This document shows, one piece after another, positions 3,157-54,863 of a stretch of 64,000 bases of DNA. Made by a program: the position numbers and the translations under genes. The notes beneath the pieces are model-generated. The model worked only from the letters and a program-made list of their open reading frames with translations, made no database searches and was not told the origin of the DNA. The stretch lies in the NCBI RefSeq assembly GCF_018263855.1, contig NZ_CP073318.1, forward strand, positions 4,712,001 through 4,776,000. Direction: 5' to 3'. The number at the start of each line of letters is the position of its first letter. Position 1 is the stretch's first letter. The DNA is from Kutzneria sp. CA-103260. Lineage in GTDB: Bacteria > Actinomycetota > Actinomycetes > Mycobacteriales > Pseudonocardiaceae.

Positions 3157-3492
3157 ATGGCACAGAAGACGATCGTCGAACTCGTCGACGATCTGGACGG
3201 CGGTGTTGCCTCCGAGAGCGTCGCATTCGGCCTCGACGGCATCGAGTACAGCATCGATCTGTCCACGGAGAACGCGAAACGACTGCGAGAAACGCTGTCG
3301 ACCTATGTGGACAGCGCACGCAGGGTGGGTGGCCGCAAGCAGCGCGCGATCGGTCGGCCCACCGGCCGAACCGGCGACAAGGCGCAGAACCAGGCCATCC
3401 GGGAATGGGCGCGCAGCCAGGGCGAGAAGATCTCCGACCGCGGCCGCATCCCCGCCGAACTGGTGACCCGTTTCCAAGCAGCTAACGGCTGA
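3157..3492 (+). CDS. lsr2: Lsr2, nucleoid-associated xenogeneic silencer
   Basis: 111 aa from ATG 3157 (MAQKTIVELVDDLDG), preceded by AGGTGGAG; earlier in-frame starts are not needed. The N-terminal half is the Lsr2 dimerisation domain. The C-terminal half carries the DNA-binding helix pair with the RGR element in SDRGRIPAELVTRF, the AT-hook-like motif that inserts into the minor groove. Lsr2 coats AT-rich and often foreign DNA and represses secondary-metabolite clusters, as H-NS does in enterobacteria. It stands next to the siderophore cluster, but lsr2 is a core gene, so location alone does not imply a dedicated role. Confidence 0.93.
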   Translation: MAQKTIVELVDDLDGGVASESVAFGLDGIEYSIDLSTENAKRLRETLSTYVDSARRVGGRKQRAIGRPTGRTGDKAQNQAIREWARSQGEKISDRGRIPAELVTRFQAANG

Positions 3493-52204: not shown

Positions 52205-52233
52205 GGGCCCCGGACATGGCCAGTCCGGGGCCC
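52205..52233. terminator. Strong hairpin downstream of the tRNA-mimic RNAs
   Basis: A perfect 11-bp stem, GGGCCCCGGAC and its complement, loop ATGGCCA. On the minus strand it lies 38 bp beyond the end of the second tRNA-like RNA; on the plus strand it lies 97 bp beyond the PucR stop. It could terminate either. Confidence 0.7.
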
Positions 52234-52270
52234 TGCTTGGCCGCCCAATTGCGCACACCGGCACGTTTAA

Positions 52271-52379
52271 GGGGACGGGTCAGTGTCAGGTCGCCGCGCT
52301 CTTCCGTTGAGCTACGGCCGCATGGTTGGCGCGGCCGGCTGGATTTGAACCAGCACCTCGACGATGGTCGCCCGTCCCC
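52271..52379 (-). ncRNA. Y RNA-like tRNA mimic 1 (circularly permuted tRNA shape)
   Basis: Read on the minus strand: arm GGGGACGGG (52379-52371); CGACCAT; anticodon-stem strand CGTCG (52363-52359); AGGT; T-arm GCTGG-TTCAAAT-CCAGC; acceptor strand CGGCCGC (52337-52331); G-CCA; ACCAT; acceptor strand GCGGCCG (52321-52315); TA; D-arm GCTC-AACGGAA-GAGC; G; anticodon-stem strand CGGCG (52296-52292); then arm CCCGTCCCC (52279-52271). All four tRNA stems pair fully (one G.U), but the order is permuted, so the RNA ends meet where the anticodon would be and no U33/anticodon is formed. Bacterial YrlA Y RNAs have this design. The end helix with GGGCGA opposite CUGACCC also resembles the Ro60-binding stem of Y RNAs. 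An ordinary tRNA is excluded. Confidence 0.72.
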
Positions 52380-52408
52380 GCGCGATCCGGTGTTCGGCGG
52401 AATGCTGA

Positions 52409-52582
52409 CGCTGGAGCGAGAGCTTGAGGTTGATTCCCGGCTGCCTCTGCCAGTTGGGCTACCCCGGCGCGGAAGTGCCGGGAGGAGGACTCGAACCTCC
52501 GCTGTGGCCGGGAGAAATCAGGCTGACGACTCAGTTTCAGCTTCACGCCCCGGTGTCCGGGGCGCGCCCCCGCGCTCCAGCG
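52409..52582 (-). ncRNA. Y RNA-like tRNA mimic 2 (circularly permuted tRNA shape)
   Basis: Minus-strand order: anticodon-stem strand CCGGC (52511-52507); CACAGC; T-arm GGAGG-TTCGAGT-CCTCC (52500-52484); acceptor strand TCCCGGC (52483-52477); A; CTTCCGC; acceptor strand GCCGGGG (52468-52462); TA; D-arm GCCC...AGGC; A; anticodon-stem strand GCCGG (52441-52437). The acceptor stem pairs 7/7 (one G.U) and the anticodon stem 5/5. Outside it the ends continue an imperfect helix: AATCA/TGATT after a TCT bulge, then CTCA/TGAG and AGCT/AGCT, and possibly an outer arm CGCTGGAGCG (52409-52418) with CGCTCCAGCG (52573-52582). The outer boundaries are uncertain because the upper arm also belongs to the terminator of the adjacent gene. 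It is similar in plan, not sequence, to mimic 1 at 52271-52379. Confidence 0.68.
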
Positions 52583-52597: not shown

Positions 52598-53329
52598 CTA
52601 CCCGAACAGGTAGCCGAAAACGGCGTCGCCGACGCGCTGGTCGGTGACCTCGTGGCCGTTGGCCTCCTCGCGGGCGAACTTGACGGCCTGCTGGAGCTTC
52701 TCGACCCGGTCGAGCAGCTCGTTGACACGGCGGGCCGGCAGCGCGCCGGAGAACTTGACGGTGGTCCAGTAGCCCACCGGCACGTCCTCGTAGTACACCT
52801 CGACCTGGGCGGGGTGCTTCTCGGTGGCCTCGGCCTTCACGTGGTTGCGCGGCACCTTCTTGGTGCGGATGGTCCGCACCTGCTCGGTGCGCCAGTAGTC
52901 GGCGGACTCCTCGAAGTTCCACGACTCGGCGGCGTCGAGCAGCGGCAGCTTCTTCACGAAGGTGTGCAGGTCGACCAGCTGCTTCTCCAGGAAGAGCAGG
53001 TAGGAGACGGGCACATCGGCCAGCAGCGTGCGGCCGTCGACCACCACGTCTGCCCGGGCCACGCAGTTGGCCCAGTCCTTGGTCGCGGTGACGTCGAACA
53101 GGCGGGTGAGCACAGTCGCGGTACGCCGCAACACGTCCTCGGTCTTGACTTGGACGCGCGTCGACTCCGGCGGCAGGACCTCGCCGTCCTCGTCCTTCGG
53201 CTGGTAGGTACGGGAGATGCCGGCCAGCAGCGCGGGCTTCTGGAGGGCGTGGTGCGCATCGGTCAGGTCCCGGAGCGCGCCGCTCTTGACGCCCTTCTCG
53301 ACCGCGATGATCTGGTTCAGCTTCGTCAT
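52598..53329 (-). CDS. Conserved-looking 243-aa protein of unknown function next to tRNA-mimic RNAs
   Basis: 243 aa from ATG 53329 (MTKLNQIIAVEKGVKSGALR); the frame upstream is repeat DNA and is rejected. It is soluble, with no signal peptide, membrane segment or known catalytic motif that I can name. Notable stretches are ISRTYQPKDEDGEVLPPEST, DVTATKDWANCVARADVVVD, VSYLLFLEKQLVDLHTFVKK and VGYWTTVKFSGALPARRVNE. I recall proteins with this N-terminus in actinomycetes and their phages, annotated only as a DUF. Its stop lies 12 bp before a hairpin and about 90 bp before the first tRNA-like RNA on the same strand. Involvement in RNA handling is a guess from position. Confidence 0.8.
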   Translation of the reverse strand: MTKLNQIIAVEKGVKSGALRDLTDAHHALQKPALLAGISRTYQPKDEDGEVLPPESTRVQVKTEDVLRRTATVLTRLFDVTATKDWANCVARADVVVDGRTLLADVPVSYLLFLEKQLVDLHTFVKKLPLLDAAESWNFEESADYWRTEQVRTIRTKKVPRNHVKAEATEKHPAQVEVYYEDVPVGYWTTVKFSGALPARRVNELLDRVEKLQQAVKFAREEANGHEVTDQRVGDAVFGYLFG

Positions 53330-53577: not shown

Positions 53578-53708
53578 ACCCTCCGATATTGGTGTGGTCG
53601 ATCATTGACCCAATGATCAGCGCAAGGTGATGAATAACTGCGATTATGCAGCAAATTTTCACTCGTTAGTGATTCGAGTTCGATCATGTGTGTGAGTATT
53701 CTGGAGGC

Positions 53709-54863
53709 ATGGAAGACCTCGCCCGCGAGATGGAGAGCATGGAACCGTCGGGGGCCATGTTGGACTTCTTTCTGGGTGCGGATCTGACCAGTCTCACACC
53801 GGAACTGCAAACCACTGCGACCATCTGTCTCCGCAAGATCAAGGCCTTTGCCGATCACGCGCTGTTGTCCATTCTTCAGTGCGTCGAGGACACCACTGAG
53901 CTCGCCATGGCCATTCACGAGCCTGAGCAGTCCGTGGTCCGTCAGAAGGATCAGGCCGAGGCTCTGGTCCGGCTGCCCCGACTCGCCGACCTGGTCCGGC
54001 GCGGCGAACTGGATCTACGCCGGCTCCAGGTCGTCGACGAGCGGATTGTCCACCTGGCCAGGCCCGACCTGGTCGCCCAGGTCGAAGACGCCCTGGTCGA
54101 CATCGCCCCCAGGCTCACCCGCACCCAACTGGCCCGCCTCACCACCAAGCTCGTCGCCGAGGCCGACCCCCTCGGCTACGACCAGCGCCGCCAGAAGGCC
54201 CGCGAGGACCGCCGGGTCGAGTTCATCCCGCTCCCCGACGGCATGGCCCAACTCCGCCTCACCCTCCCGGCCATCGACGCCCGCGCCGCCTATGAACTGC
54301 TGGTCCAGGACGCCCGCTCCCTCGCCAAAGACGACCGCACCACCGACCAGAAGCGGGCGGACGCCTTCCTGGACCGCTTCCTGGGCTACGGCGTGGATCG
54401 CAAGGTCAAGGTGCATGTCACCATCTCGATGGAGACGCTGATGGGGTTGACCGAGGACCCCGCCCTGCTCGACGGCTACGGCCCCATCGCCGCTGACGCC
54501 GCCCGCGAACTCGCCATGCACGGCCCCTGGAACGGTCTCCTTCTCGACGAGTACCGCCATGCCGCCGCCATCGGGACCCACACCTACCGCCCCAACGCCG
54601 AAACCCGCGCCTTCTCCACCCTCCGCGACGGCGGCACCTGTTCGGCCCCAGGCTGTATCAGTCCAATCAGGGAACTCGACCACACCGTTCCCTGGCCACA
54701 AGGTAAGACCAACGCCACCCAACTCAAGGGCTACTGCGCTCATCATCATCGCGTCAAGCACGGCAAATGCGGTAACTACACCGTGACCCTAGATTCTGAC
54801 GGAACGCTCCATTGGGTCACCCCGCAAGGCCGCCACTACACCACCCAGCCCCACCAGTACTGA
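53709..54863 (+). CDS. DUF222 / HNH endonuclease-domain protein
   Basis: About 384 aa. The N-terminal two thirds is the helical DUF222 (13E12-type) region; residues about 320-365 form an HNH domain with CSAPGCISPIRELDHTVPWP and CAHHHRVKHG, including paired cysteines for a structural zinc. Proteins of this family are numerous in actinobacteria; nuclease activity is presumed and their role is unsettled. GGAGG lies only 1 bp before ATG 53709, so the true start may be GTG 53688 or ATG 53730. No partner genes flank it. Confidence 0.82.
   Translation: MEDLAREMESMEPSGAMLDFFLGADLTSLTPELQTTATICLRKIKAFADHALLSILQCVEDTTELAMAIHEPEQSVVRQKDQAEALVRLPRLADLVRRGELDLRRLQVVDERIVHLARPDLVAQVEDALVDIAPRLTRTQLARLTTKLVAEADPLGYDQRRQKAREDRRVEFIPLPDGMAQLRLTLPAIDARAAYELLVQDARSLAKDDRTTDQKRADAFLDRFLGYGVDRKVKVHVTISMETLMGLTEDPALLDGYGPIAADAARELAMHGPWNGLLLDEYRHAAAIGTHTYRPNAETRAFSTLRDGGTCSAPGCISPIRELDHTVPWPQGKTNATQLKGYCAHHHRVKHGKCGNYTVTLDSDGTLHWVTPQGRHYTTQPHQY

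Follow-up and report, generated by a model that had tools for sequence, protein, structure and literature searches.

A stretch of 64,000 nucleotides (nt) from the genome of Kutzneria sp. CA-103260 (assembly GCF_018263855.1, contig NZ_CP073318.1, positions 4,712,001 to 4,776,000; this whole stretch is hereafter called the window, and all positions are given in its coordinates) carries, on its minus strand, two circularly permuted tRNA-like modules, A and B, in which a T-arm and the 3' acceptor strand lie ahead of the 5' acceptor strand and the D-arm. The two modules are apparently parts of a single RNA of ~300-400 nt, located 3' of a gene of the DUF7873 family. We show that the stems of this RNA and a tRNA-type tertiary pair covary among its relatives, and that DUF7873 genes are linked to permuted RNAs of this kind in bacteria and phages. 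The explanation we favour, with moderate confidence, is that gene and RNA would together make a Ro60-independent Y-RNA-like ribonucleoprotein, with DUF7873 as the probable partner and with tRNA-like heads that would engage or decoy tRNA-handling enzymes.

Two permuted tRNA-like modules downstream of a DUF7873 gene

A preliminary description of this DNA had placed two permuted tRNA-shaped modules on the minus strand, and direct reading finds them there, with acceptor stems that pair 7/7 and anticodon-like stems that pair 5/5 in both, as it had stated. Module A consists of a T-arm (52500-52484), an acceptor stem (52483-52477 with 52468-52462, one G.U), a D-arm (52459-52443) and an anticodon-like stem (52511-52507 with 52441-52437), and module B of a T-arm (52354-52338), an acceptor stem (52337-52331 with 52321-52315), a D-arm (52312-52298) and an anticodon-like stem (52363-52359 with 52296-52292, one G.U). 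The complementary closing arm that had been described proved to pair 9/9 around module B, and the G-CCA reported after an acceptor strand was found at 52330-52327 of the same module. It had also been correctly noted that no U33 or anticodon arises at the junction; the 7-nt anticodon loop is not restored there, and the strands run on into the P2/P1 and P_A helices.

The two modules had been taken for two tandem RNAs, of which the two modules stand, while the linker between them is conserved and so points to one transcript rather than two. Forty-six two-module units, thinned from 102 at 80% similarity and having complete flanks, were aligned segment by segment and share, besides the heads, a 5' stem, hexamer repeats, the conserved linker and an internal loop. 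P1, the hexamer repeats, the conserved linker and the DUF7873 gene are elements that the preliminary description did not contain. The features are as follows, each with the evidence for it; R1 is a covariance model and A3 an alignment, both of module B.

52598-53329, minus strand: DUF7873 protein gene, 243 amino acids plus stop codon, probable protein partner (Pfam PF25283)
52205-52551, minus strand: proposed whole RNA (5' stem, module A, linker, module B, 3' hairpin), approximate extent (conserved blocks in the 46 nonredundant two-module units)
52546-52551, minus strand: P_A 5' strand GGGGCG, pairing with 52418-52413 in 6 pairs, one of them G.U (own-versus-swapped test in relatives)
52529-52546, minus strand: NUNANN hexamers, three in phase, with two more past a 1-nt slip, to ~52516 (sequence; period-6 repeat in relatives)
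52437-52511, minus strand: module A, permuted tRNA-like domain (module scan; R1 44.4 bits; anticodon-like stem test in relatives)
52423-52434, minus strand: two NUNANN hexamers 3' of module A (repeat count in relatives)
52413-52418, minus strand: P_A 3' strand CGCTCC (own-versus-swapped test in relatives)
52387-52393, minus strand: 5' strand of P1, the outer stem of module B, ACACCGG, with its partner at 52261-52255 (helix 1: 7/7 pairs change on both sides)
52380-52386, minus strand: internal loop, 5' side, AUCGCGC, consensus AUCGACC (conserved block, alignment A3)
52371-52379, minus strand: 5' strand of P2, the inner stem or closing arm, GGGGACGGG, pairing 9/9 with 52279-52271 (helix 2: 9/9 pairs change on both sides)
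52292-52363, minus strand: module B, permuted tRNA-like domain with GCCA in the acceptor loop (module scan; covariation including the Levitt pair 15-48)
52278-52289, minus strand: two NUNANN hexamers 3' of module B, CUGACA CUGACC (repeat count in relatives)
52271-52279, minus strand: P2 3' strand CCCGTCCCC (module B covariation)
52262-52270, minus strand: internal loop, 3' side, UUAAACGUG, conserved UUAAACG (alignment A3)
52255-52261, minus strand: P1 3' strand CCGGTGT (module B covariation)
52205-52233, minus strand: terminator-like hairpin, 11-bp stem, loop UGGCCAU, no U run (sequence; similar loops in relatives)

The stems and a tRNA-type tertiary pair covary

Ranking the column pairs of the 46 units with no structure given placed all of the top 36 in the T, acceptor and D stems, in P1, in P2, in the anticodon-like stem of module B, or at the tertiary (Levitt) pair 15-48, which is U-A in 37 and C-G in 7 of the 46 units. 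The scan by which permuted modules were collected took hits within 900 nt 3' of the gene and used U8 and the T-loop as selection criteria; it therefore partly selects the T, acceptor and D stems, but not P1, P2, the anticodon-like stems or the 15-48 pair. P_A ranked low (z 4.8).

For module B, we aligned the window with 26 of the 29 units that have short module B loops, leaving out the loci L114, L133 and L176 (alignment A3; loci are cited by our L numbers). In these 27 rows 90.9% of the cells are paired, compared to 65.8% after shuffling, both partners change in 35 of the 38 pairs, and the covariation score reaches 0.684, compared to 0.215 for shuffled and 0.13-0.17 for slid alignments; the weakest helix is the anticodon-like stem, with 71% paired. 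We also compared how well each strand pairs with its own partner and with partners swapped between relatives. P_A strands pair better with their own partners (mean 4.80 versus 4.17), a result reached in 0 of 2000 permutations, and 0 of 2000 was likewise the outcome for both anticodon-like stems, P1 and P2, whereas crossed null controls gave 287 and 449 of 2000. In the window itself, the P_A stem competes with a local hairpin. Taken together, these comparisons establish the secondary structure of the RNA and its tRNA-type tertiary pair.

The RNA accompanies DUF7873 genes

Among actinobacterial DUF7873 loci (L002-L088, with the Kutzneria genome itself as one of the 87), 87 of 87 show one module or more in the 900 nt on the 3' side of the gene and 61 show two, the first strict match lying 83-324 nt past the gene (median 139). 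Since the proteins of L009-L088 are at least 82% identical to the window protein, these loci are not independent, and the diverse viral set is the better test of the association. There 67 of 80 loci gave a strict hit in the 900 nt on the 3' side of the gene, and 37 gave two. As background, dinucleotide-shuffled stretches, each up to 900 nt long, averaged 0.005 hits, and the rest of the viral loci, 898 kb in all, contained 22.

R1 was built from the 27 rows of module B, including that of the window, to which 15 of the 80 viral loci contributed. It matched with at least 50 bits in 70 of the 80, and in 68 of these 70 the match lies 3' of the gene on the same strand; of the remaining ten loci, seven have weaker or cut-off matches near the gene. 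Starting in reverse from the RNA motif, two scans of viral contigs gave 14 loci, of which ten have the RNA and all ten of these have DUF7873 (eight of the contigs had been seen before and two were new), and neither was found in the other four. In a search of actinobacteria with a custom permuted model (R1), as the preliminary description had proposed, with ten candidates scored per genome under strict filters, matches of at least 60 bits occurred in 6 of 296 genomes, all six DUF7873-positive, and 46 other genomes had weaker matches only. In the Kutzneria genome (11.6 Mb; 150 of 11335 first-look candidates scored), module B scored 136.4, module A 44.4 and the next best match 25.4 bits.

Other neighbours were inconstant. 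In bacteria, 17 of 80 loci were used and 90 of 115 open reading frames (ORFs) clustered (set A4), and in viruses 92 of 183 ORFs, selected from 399 (set A5); at most 3 of the 90 bacterial proteins (among the first 25 of 42 families) and at most 2 of the 92 phage proteins (among the first 25 of 35) share a family. These results demonstrate the linkage of the DUF7873 gene to the permuted RNA. Upstream of the DUF7873 gene, the window holds a DUF222 protein gene on the opposite strand (53688-54863).

Hosts are varied. Permuted modules follow DUF7873 in Arthrobacter phage Racecar, Gordonia phages Phendrix and Keelan, Rhodococcus phage NiceHouse, Pseudanabaena phage Pam2 and also in Nonomuraea; Klebsiella phages KpLz-2_45 and FBKp24 have two modules each (25-39 bits), and a single one was found in Rhizobium phage RHph_TM21B and Vibrio phage D505 (28 bits). 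An annotated 'tRNA-Sup-TTA' in FBKp24 (L231:3518-3597) overlaps module B and is probably a misannotation. The region L229:5010-5490 of the Microcoleus phage combines hexamer-like repeats with a run of several T-arm/acceptor units of permuted type and may represent a multi-headed variant. The D-arm of module A in L227/L231 and L092 reads UGGCGGAAUUGGUAGACGC and differs from the actinobacterial copies; we take it to be like that of tRNA-Leu. Of the 60 viral loci examined out of 80, 32 have tRNA genes no more than 3 kb away, the single tRNA call at L107 overlapping the RNA itself, and in phage loci L102, L108, L116, L129, L132, L136, L142 and L155 an ordinary tRNA gene stands directly between module B and the 3' hairpin, the loop motif of which recurs in many relatives (GGAUAUG, UGGACAUG, UGGCCAUG).

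Hexamer repeats and acceptor loops

Before module A, NUNANN repeats at least four times in a row in 23 of the 46 units (0.07 of 46 expected from shuffles), and none of seven other periods reaches four repeats there; runs of at least two also occur 3' of module A in 27 of 46 units (6.5 expected) and 3' of module B in 27 (5.2 expected). We considered base pairing among the hexamer strands and rejected it, since own pairs were no better than swapped ones (1206 of 2000 permutations, 21 units); strands that do not pair with each other look like protein sites. A coding reading of the repeat strand (KLKLKL-like) was dropped as well, the linkers of related loci differing by 1-nt insertions or deletions (L089 versus L106, by eye).

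NCCA opens the acceptor loop of module A in 24 and of module B in 18 of the 46 units, with a CCA background of 1.8%, and position 74 is C in 81 of 92 modules. Some members close the acceptor with a loop of 4-6 nt that has no CCA (TCGT, GCTCGA), and CCA-dependent processing thus cannot be general. The heads keep A14 and the D-loop GG. Their acceptor sequences differ widely yet stay paired, which shows no visible synthetase identity and makes a general reader of tRNA shape likelier than one synthetase.

The DUF7873 protein

The gene immediately 5' of the RNA, on the same strand, matches Pfam PF25283 (DUF7873) with 404 bits (E 3e-121, positions 1-242 of 244), well over the curated cut-off of 27 bits. 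Relatives were found in 73 phage records (79 with the Vibrio phage query), in 4 records of a plasmid collection, one of them from Nonomuraea gerenzanensis, and in at least 575 confirmed stretches of genome contigs, the best 80 of which were retained; across a sample of the whole phylum, the gene occurred in 7 of 396 actinobacterial genomes, the Kutzneria genome among them. The Vibrio phage homologue as query confirmed no further viral locus. For a subset of the loci, 73 DUF7873 proteins were assembled into a protein set (A2).

The AlphaFold model of the window protein has a mean predicted local distance difference test score (pLDDT) of 92.9 and agrees with that of a cyanophage homologue, ~40% identical, in the order helix, strand, helix, two strands, helix, small strands, long hairpin and helices, in which by eye only one may see a resemblance to an RNA-recognition fold. 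Neither model matched a PDB fold at E of 0.001 or less, nor did the window model match any viral model at that level. The highest Foldseek probability belonged, for the window model, to an uncharacterised protein of phage cr118_1 (probability 0.99, template-modelling (TM) score 0.46/0.60, E 0.095) and, for the cyanophage homologue, to 3kdq, a protein of unknown function (probability 0.90, E 0.12). Two candidates were dropped: a Cas7-like fold, which led the ranking for the window model, though weakly (E 0.0065, probability 0.33, TM 0.15), and reached only ranks 10-12 for the 40%-identical homologue (probability at most 0.04), and KwaB, for which the Vibrio phage homologue alone had a single weak PADLOC match (17.6 bits, E 4.5e-4), the window protein having none. 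We found no open-licence paper that names DUF7873, and none among the matches listed, judged by titles and the starts of abstracts, describes the pair of DUF7873 and RNA.

Relation to YrlA and the Ro60 system

The modules had been called probable YrlA-like Y RNAs, and in part this holds: the architecture is shared, but filing them under YrlA and Ro60 finds no support. YrlA (RF02553) is the best Rfam match of both modules in a targeted scan, at 29.6 and 28.3 bits against a gathering threshold of 69, no Rfam family matches the window at threshold, and the constant neighbour is DUF7873. A search of the Kutzneria genome for a TROVE (Ro60/Rsr) gene, proposed earlier as a check, found none; a like search for RtcB did find one, but megabases from the locus. 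In 4 of 6 further DUF7873-positive genomes (our genus g8, Streptomyces by inference) YrlA-like RNAs stand at TROVE genes elsewhere, often with two modules per locus, so that in these genomes the version with Ro60 and the one with DUF7873 occupy distinct loci; in the other 2 of the 6 TROVE was not found. These TROVE-linked RNAs (L181-L184) themselves score 34-56 bits with the Rfam YrlA model, meaning that its threshold is strict and that Rfam misses them. The L183 RNA sits 5' of where the TROVE gene probably starts, and a very short loop closes its acceptor. At L200 (40 bits), two modules lie upstream of an ORF that may be Ro-like, the fragment having no Pfam match.

Excerpts of the literature place these RNAs in a wider setting: Y RNAs are reported from bacteria and mycobacteriophages (PMC12282133), YrlA is predicted in mycobacteria (PMC9569102, PMC8190616) and TROVE occurs in jumbo phages (PMC7824862). 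PMC7790460 describes a Salmonella rsr-yrlBA-rtcBA operon and suggests possible competitive inhibition of an anticodon nuclease by YrlA, the abstract of PMC12803027 calls a mycobacterial tRNA array a putative antidefense system, and PMC10085705 mentions permuted tRNA genes and a two-piece transfer-messenger RNA (tmRNA); PMC7765460 and PMC8058203 are, from their excerpts, further related work.

Discussion

We propose that the DUF7873 gene and the structured RNA downstream of it, with its two circularly permuted tRNA-like heads, form a two-part cassette. DUF7873 would bind the RNA at stems and loops outside the heads, with the internal loop AUCGACC/UUAAACG and the NUNANN hexamers among them, and the particle would work like the Ro60-Y RNA system while dispensing with Ro60. 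The exposed heads, that is, the elbow of T-loop and D-loop and the acceptor stem, could then bind tRNA-handling enzymes. In phages, where the cassette is often found among tRNA genes, such heads would most likely serve as decoys or recruiters for host enzymes or nucleases that have tRNA as their substrate, which would protect the phage tRNA pool; the copies in bacteria would be the same particle in chromosomal form. A bolder form of this proposal, which we offer tentatively and with clearly less confidence, is that these are an independent class of Ro60-free Y-RNA-like ribonucleoproteins, serving phages as a countermeasure, with tRNA-cutting or tRNA-processing enzymes as the targets that they decoy or recruit, and that the protein reads the 6-nt NUNANN repeat.

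Several observations weigh against the proposal. DUF7873 has no confident fold match in the PDB or among viral models, so that its RNA binding is deduced from genetic linkage alone. Genes of RNA repair are no constant partners in the 46 phage records, which may be fragments (TROVE in 4, RtcB in 3, RNA ligase in 14), and 28 of 60 viral loci show no tRNA gene nearby. The arrangement itself varies: among the 70 viral loci with strong matches, L161 has the RNA 5' of the gene and L174 has it on the other strand; L109, L110 and L160 (3 of 80) have no RNA match in the available flanks; the RNA-like region of the Microcoleus phage (29 bits) lies nearly 2 kb farther downstream, behind another gene; and in Prevotella phage Lak-A1 (L228, 541 kb), which encodes a distant DUF7873 relative, no permuted RNA was detected. 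The RNAs of the Klebsiella phages (34 and 39 bits) and of the Vibrio phage (28 bits) also match the model with low scores.

Could the RNAs be a true YrlA Y RNA pair of a Ro60 system, with Ro60 supplied from elsewhere? The architecture is that of the Rfam YrlA consensus, and the TROVE-linked RNAs at separate loci in 4 of the 6 genomes would fit; we nevertheless judge this improbable, given that TROVE had no match in the Kutzneria genome, in 2 of the 6 genomes and in 42 of the 46 phage records (possibly fragments), that 28-30 bits are no better than the 32-38 bits of tandem tRNA genes (L195-L198), and that the L183 RNA differs in its place 5' of the TROVE start and in its very short acceptor loop. 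An alternative that fares a little better, though we still think it unlikely, and that the preliminary description had raised in part, is a permuted or two-piece tRNA in which RNase P and 3' maturation would open the acceptor loop and leave a CCA-ended tRNA broken in the anticodon loop, a sensor or substrate for RNA repair or anticodon nucleases. The enrichment of NCCA, and of C74, at the acceptor loop fits tRNA-end processing, and polynucleotide kinase-phosphatase (PNKP; two) and RlaP (one) occur among the 92 phage neighbour proteins; set against this are the acceptor loops of 4-6 nt that lack CCA, ends joined by long extra stems and not by an anticodon loop, the scarcity of RtcB in the phage records (3 of 46), and the variable acceptors with no visible synthetase identity.

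The position of the RNA, which in the window begins ~50 nt past the stop codon and in the 87 actinobacterial loci gives its first strict hit 83-324 nt past the gene, would also suit a cis element, namely a structured 3' untranslated region (UTR) that controls the stability or expression of the DUF7873 mRNA. Such a role is hard to reconcile with the RNA lying 5' of the gene in L161, antisense in L174 and behind another gene in the Microcoleus phage, two tRNA-like folds would be elaborate for a UTR, and in phage FBKp24 a promoter is annotated at 3302-3333, between gene and RNA and just before the latter; we give this explanation little credence. Least of all do we believe in an artefact of tandem or decayed tRNA genes. 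Tandem tRNA genes do partly match the permuted model (34-51 bits at the five loci checked, L195-L198 and L205), and further weak R1 matches of 28-39 bits occur among the 296 actinobacterial genomes, but at those five loci the matches stop short of P1 and ARAGORN finds ordinary tRNAs. In the window it calls none, there being no colinear cloverleaf, and the covariation of P1, P2 and the anticodon-like stems contradicts such an origin.

If the favoured explanation, a Ro60-independent Y-RNA-like particle, holds true, DUF7873 would join Ro60 as the second protein family with a tight link to permuted tRNA-mimic RNAs, and such mimics would seem to be more widespread than the YrlA family catalogued in Rfam suggests. 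DUF7873 gains a concrete candidate RNA partner, and the covariance model a use in finding more members; occurrence in unrelated phages, often by phage tRNA genes, would make the pair a testable candidate for tRNA-based conflict between phage and host.

Comparison with known systems

Permuted tRNA genes, in which the 3' half is encoded ahead of the 5' half, are known from algae and archaea. The same order is found here, but the junction recreates no anticodon, the ends are held together by long extra stems and the acceptor is often short-looped. Two-piece (permuted) tmRNA likewise has a permuted acceptor domain, and an excisable loop would yield two pieces in our RNA as well; as read from the sequence, though, neither window module has the G3-U70 alanine identity.

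GOLLD and ROOL are, according to excerpts of PMC12286853, large structured RNAs of phages and prophages, often located by tRNA islands and of unknown function. The present RNA resembles them as a structured phage RNA that is often near tRNA islands, and differs in its permuted tRNA heads and constant protein gene, where GOLLD and ROOL form RNA-only cages; neither had an Rfam match at the gathering threshold in the window or in 28 related loci (best 150 of 158 matches).

The closest likeness is to YrlA, with which the RNA shares a permuted tRNA-like head with closed acceptor, the anticodon-like stem, an inner stem, an asymmetric internal loop and an outer stem. The differences are a sub-threshold Rfam score, a DUF7873 partner gene that is nearly always 5' of the RNA, where Ro60 was not found in the Kutzneria genome, and an RNA that apparently unites two heads, carries NUNANN hexamers and, in many members, encodes NCCA.
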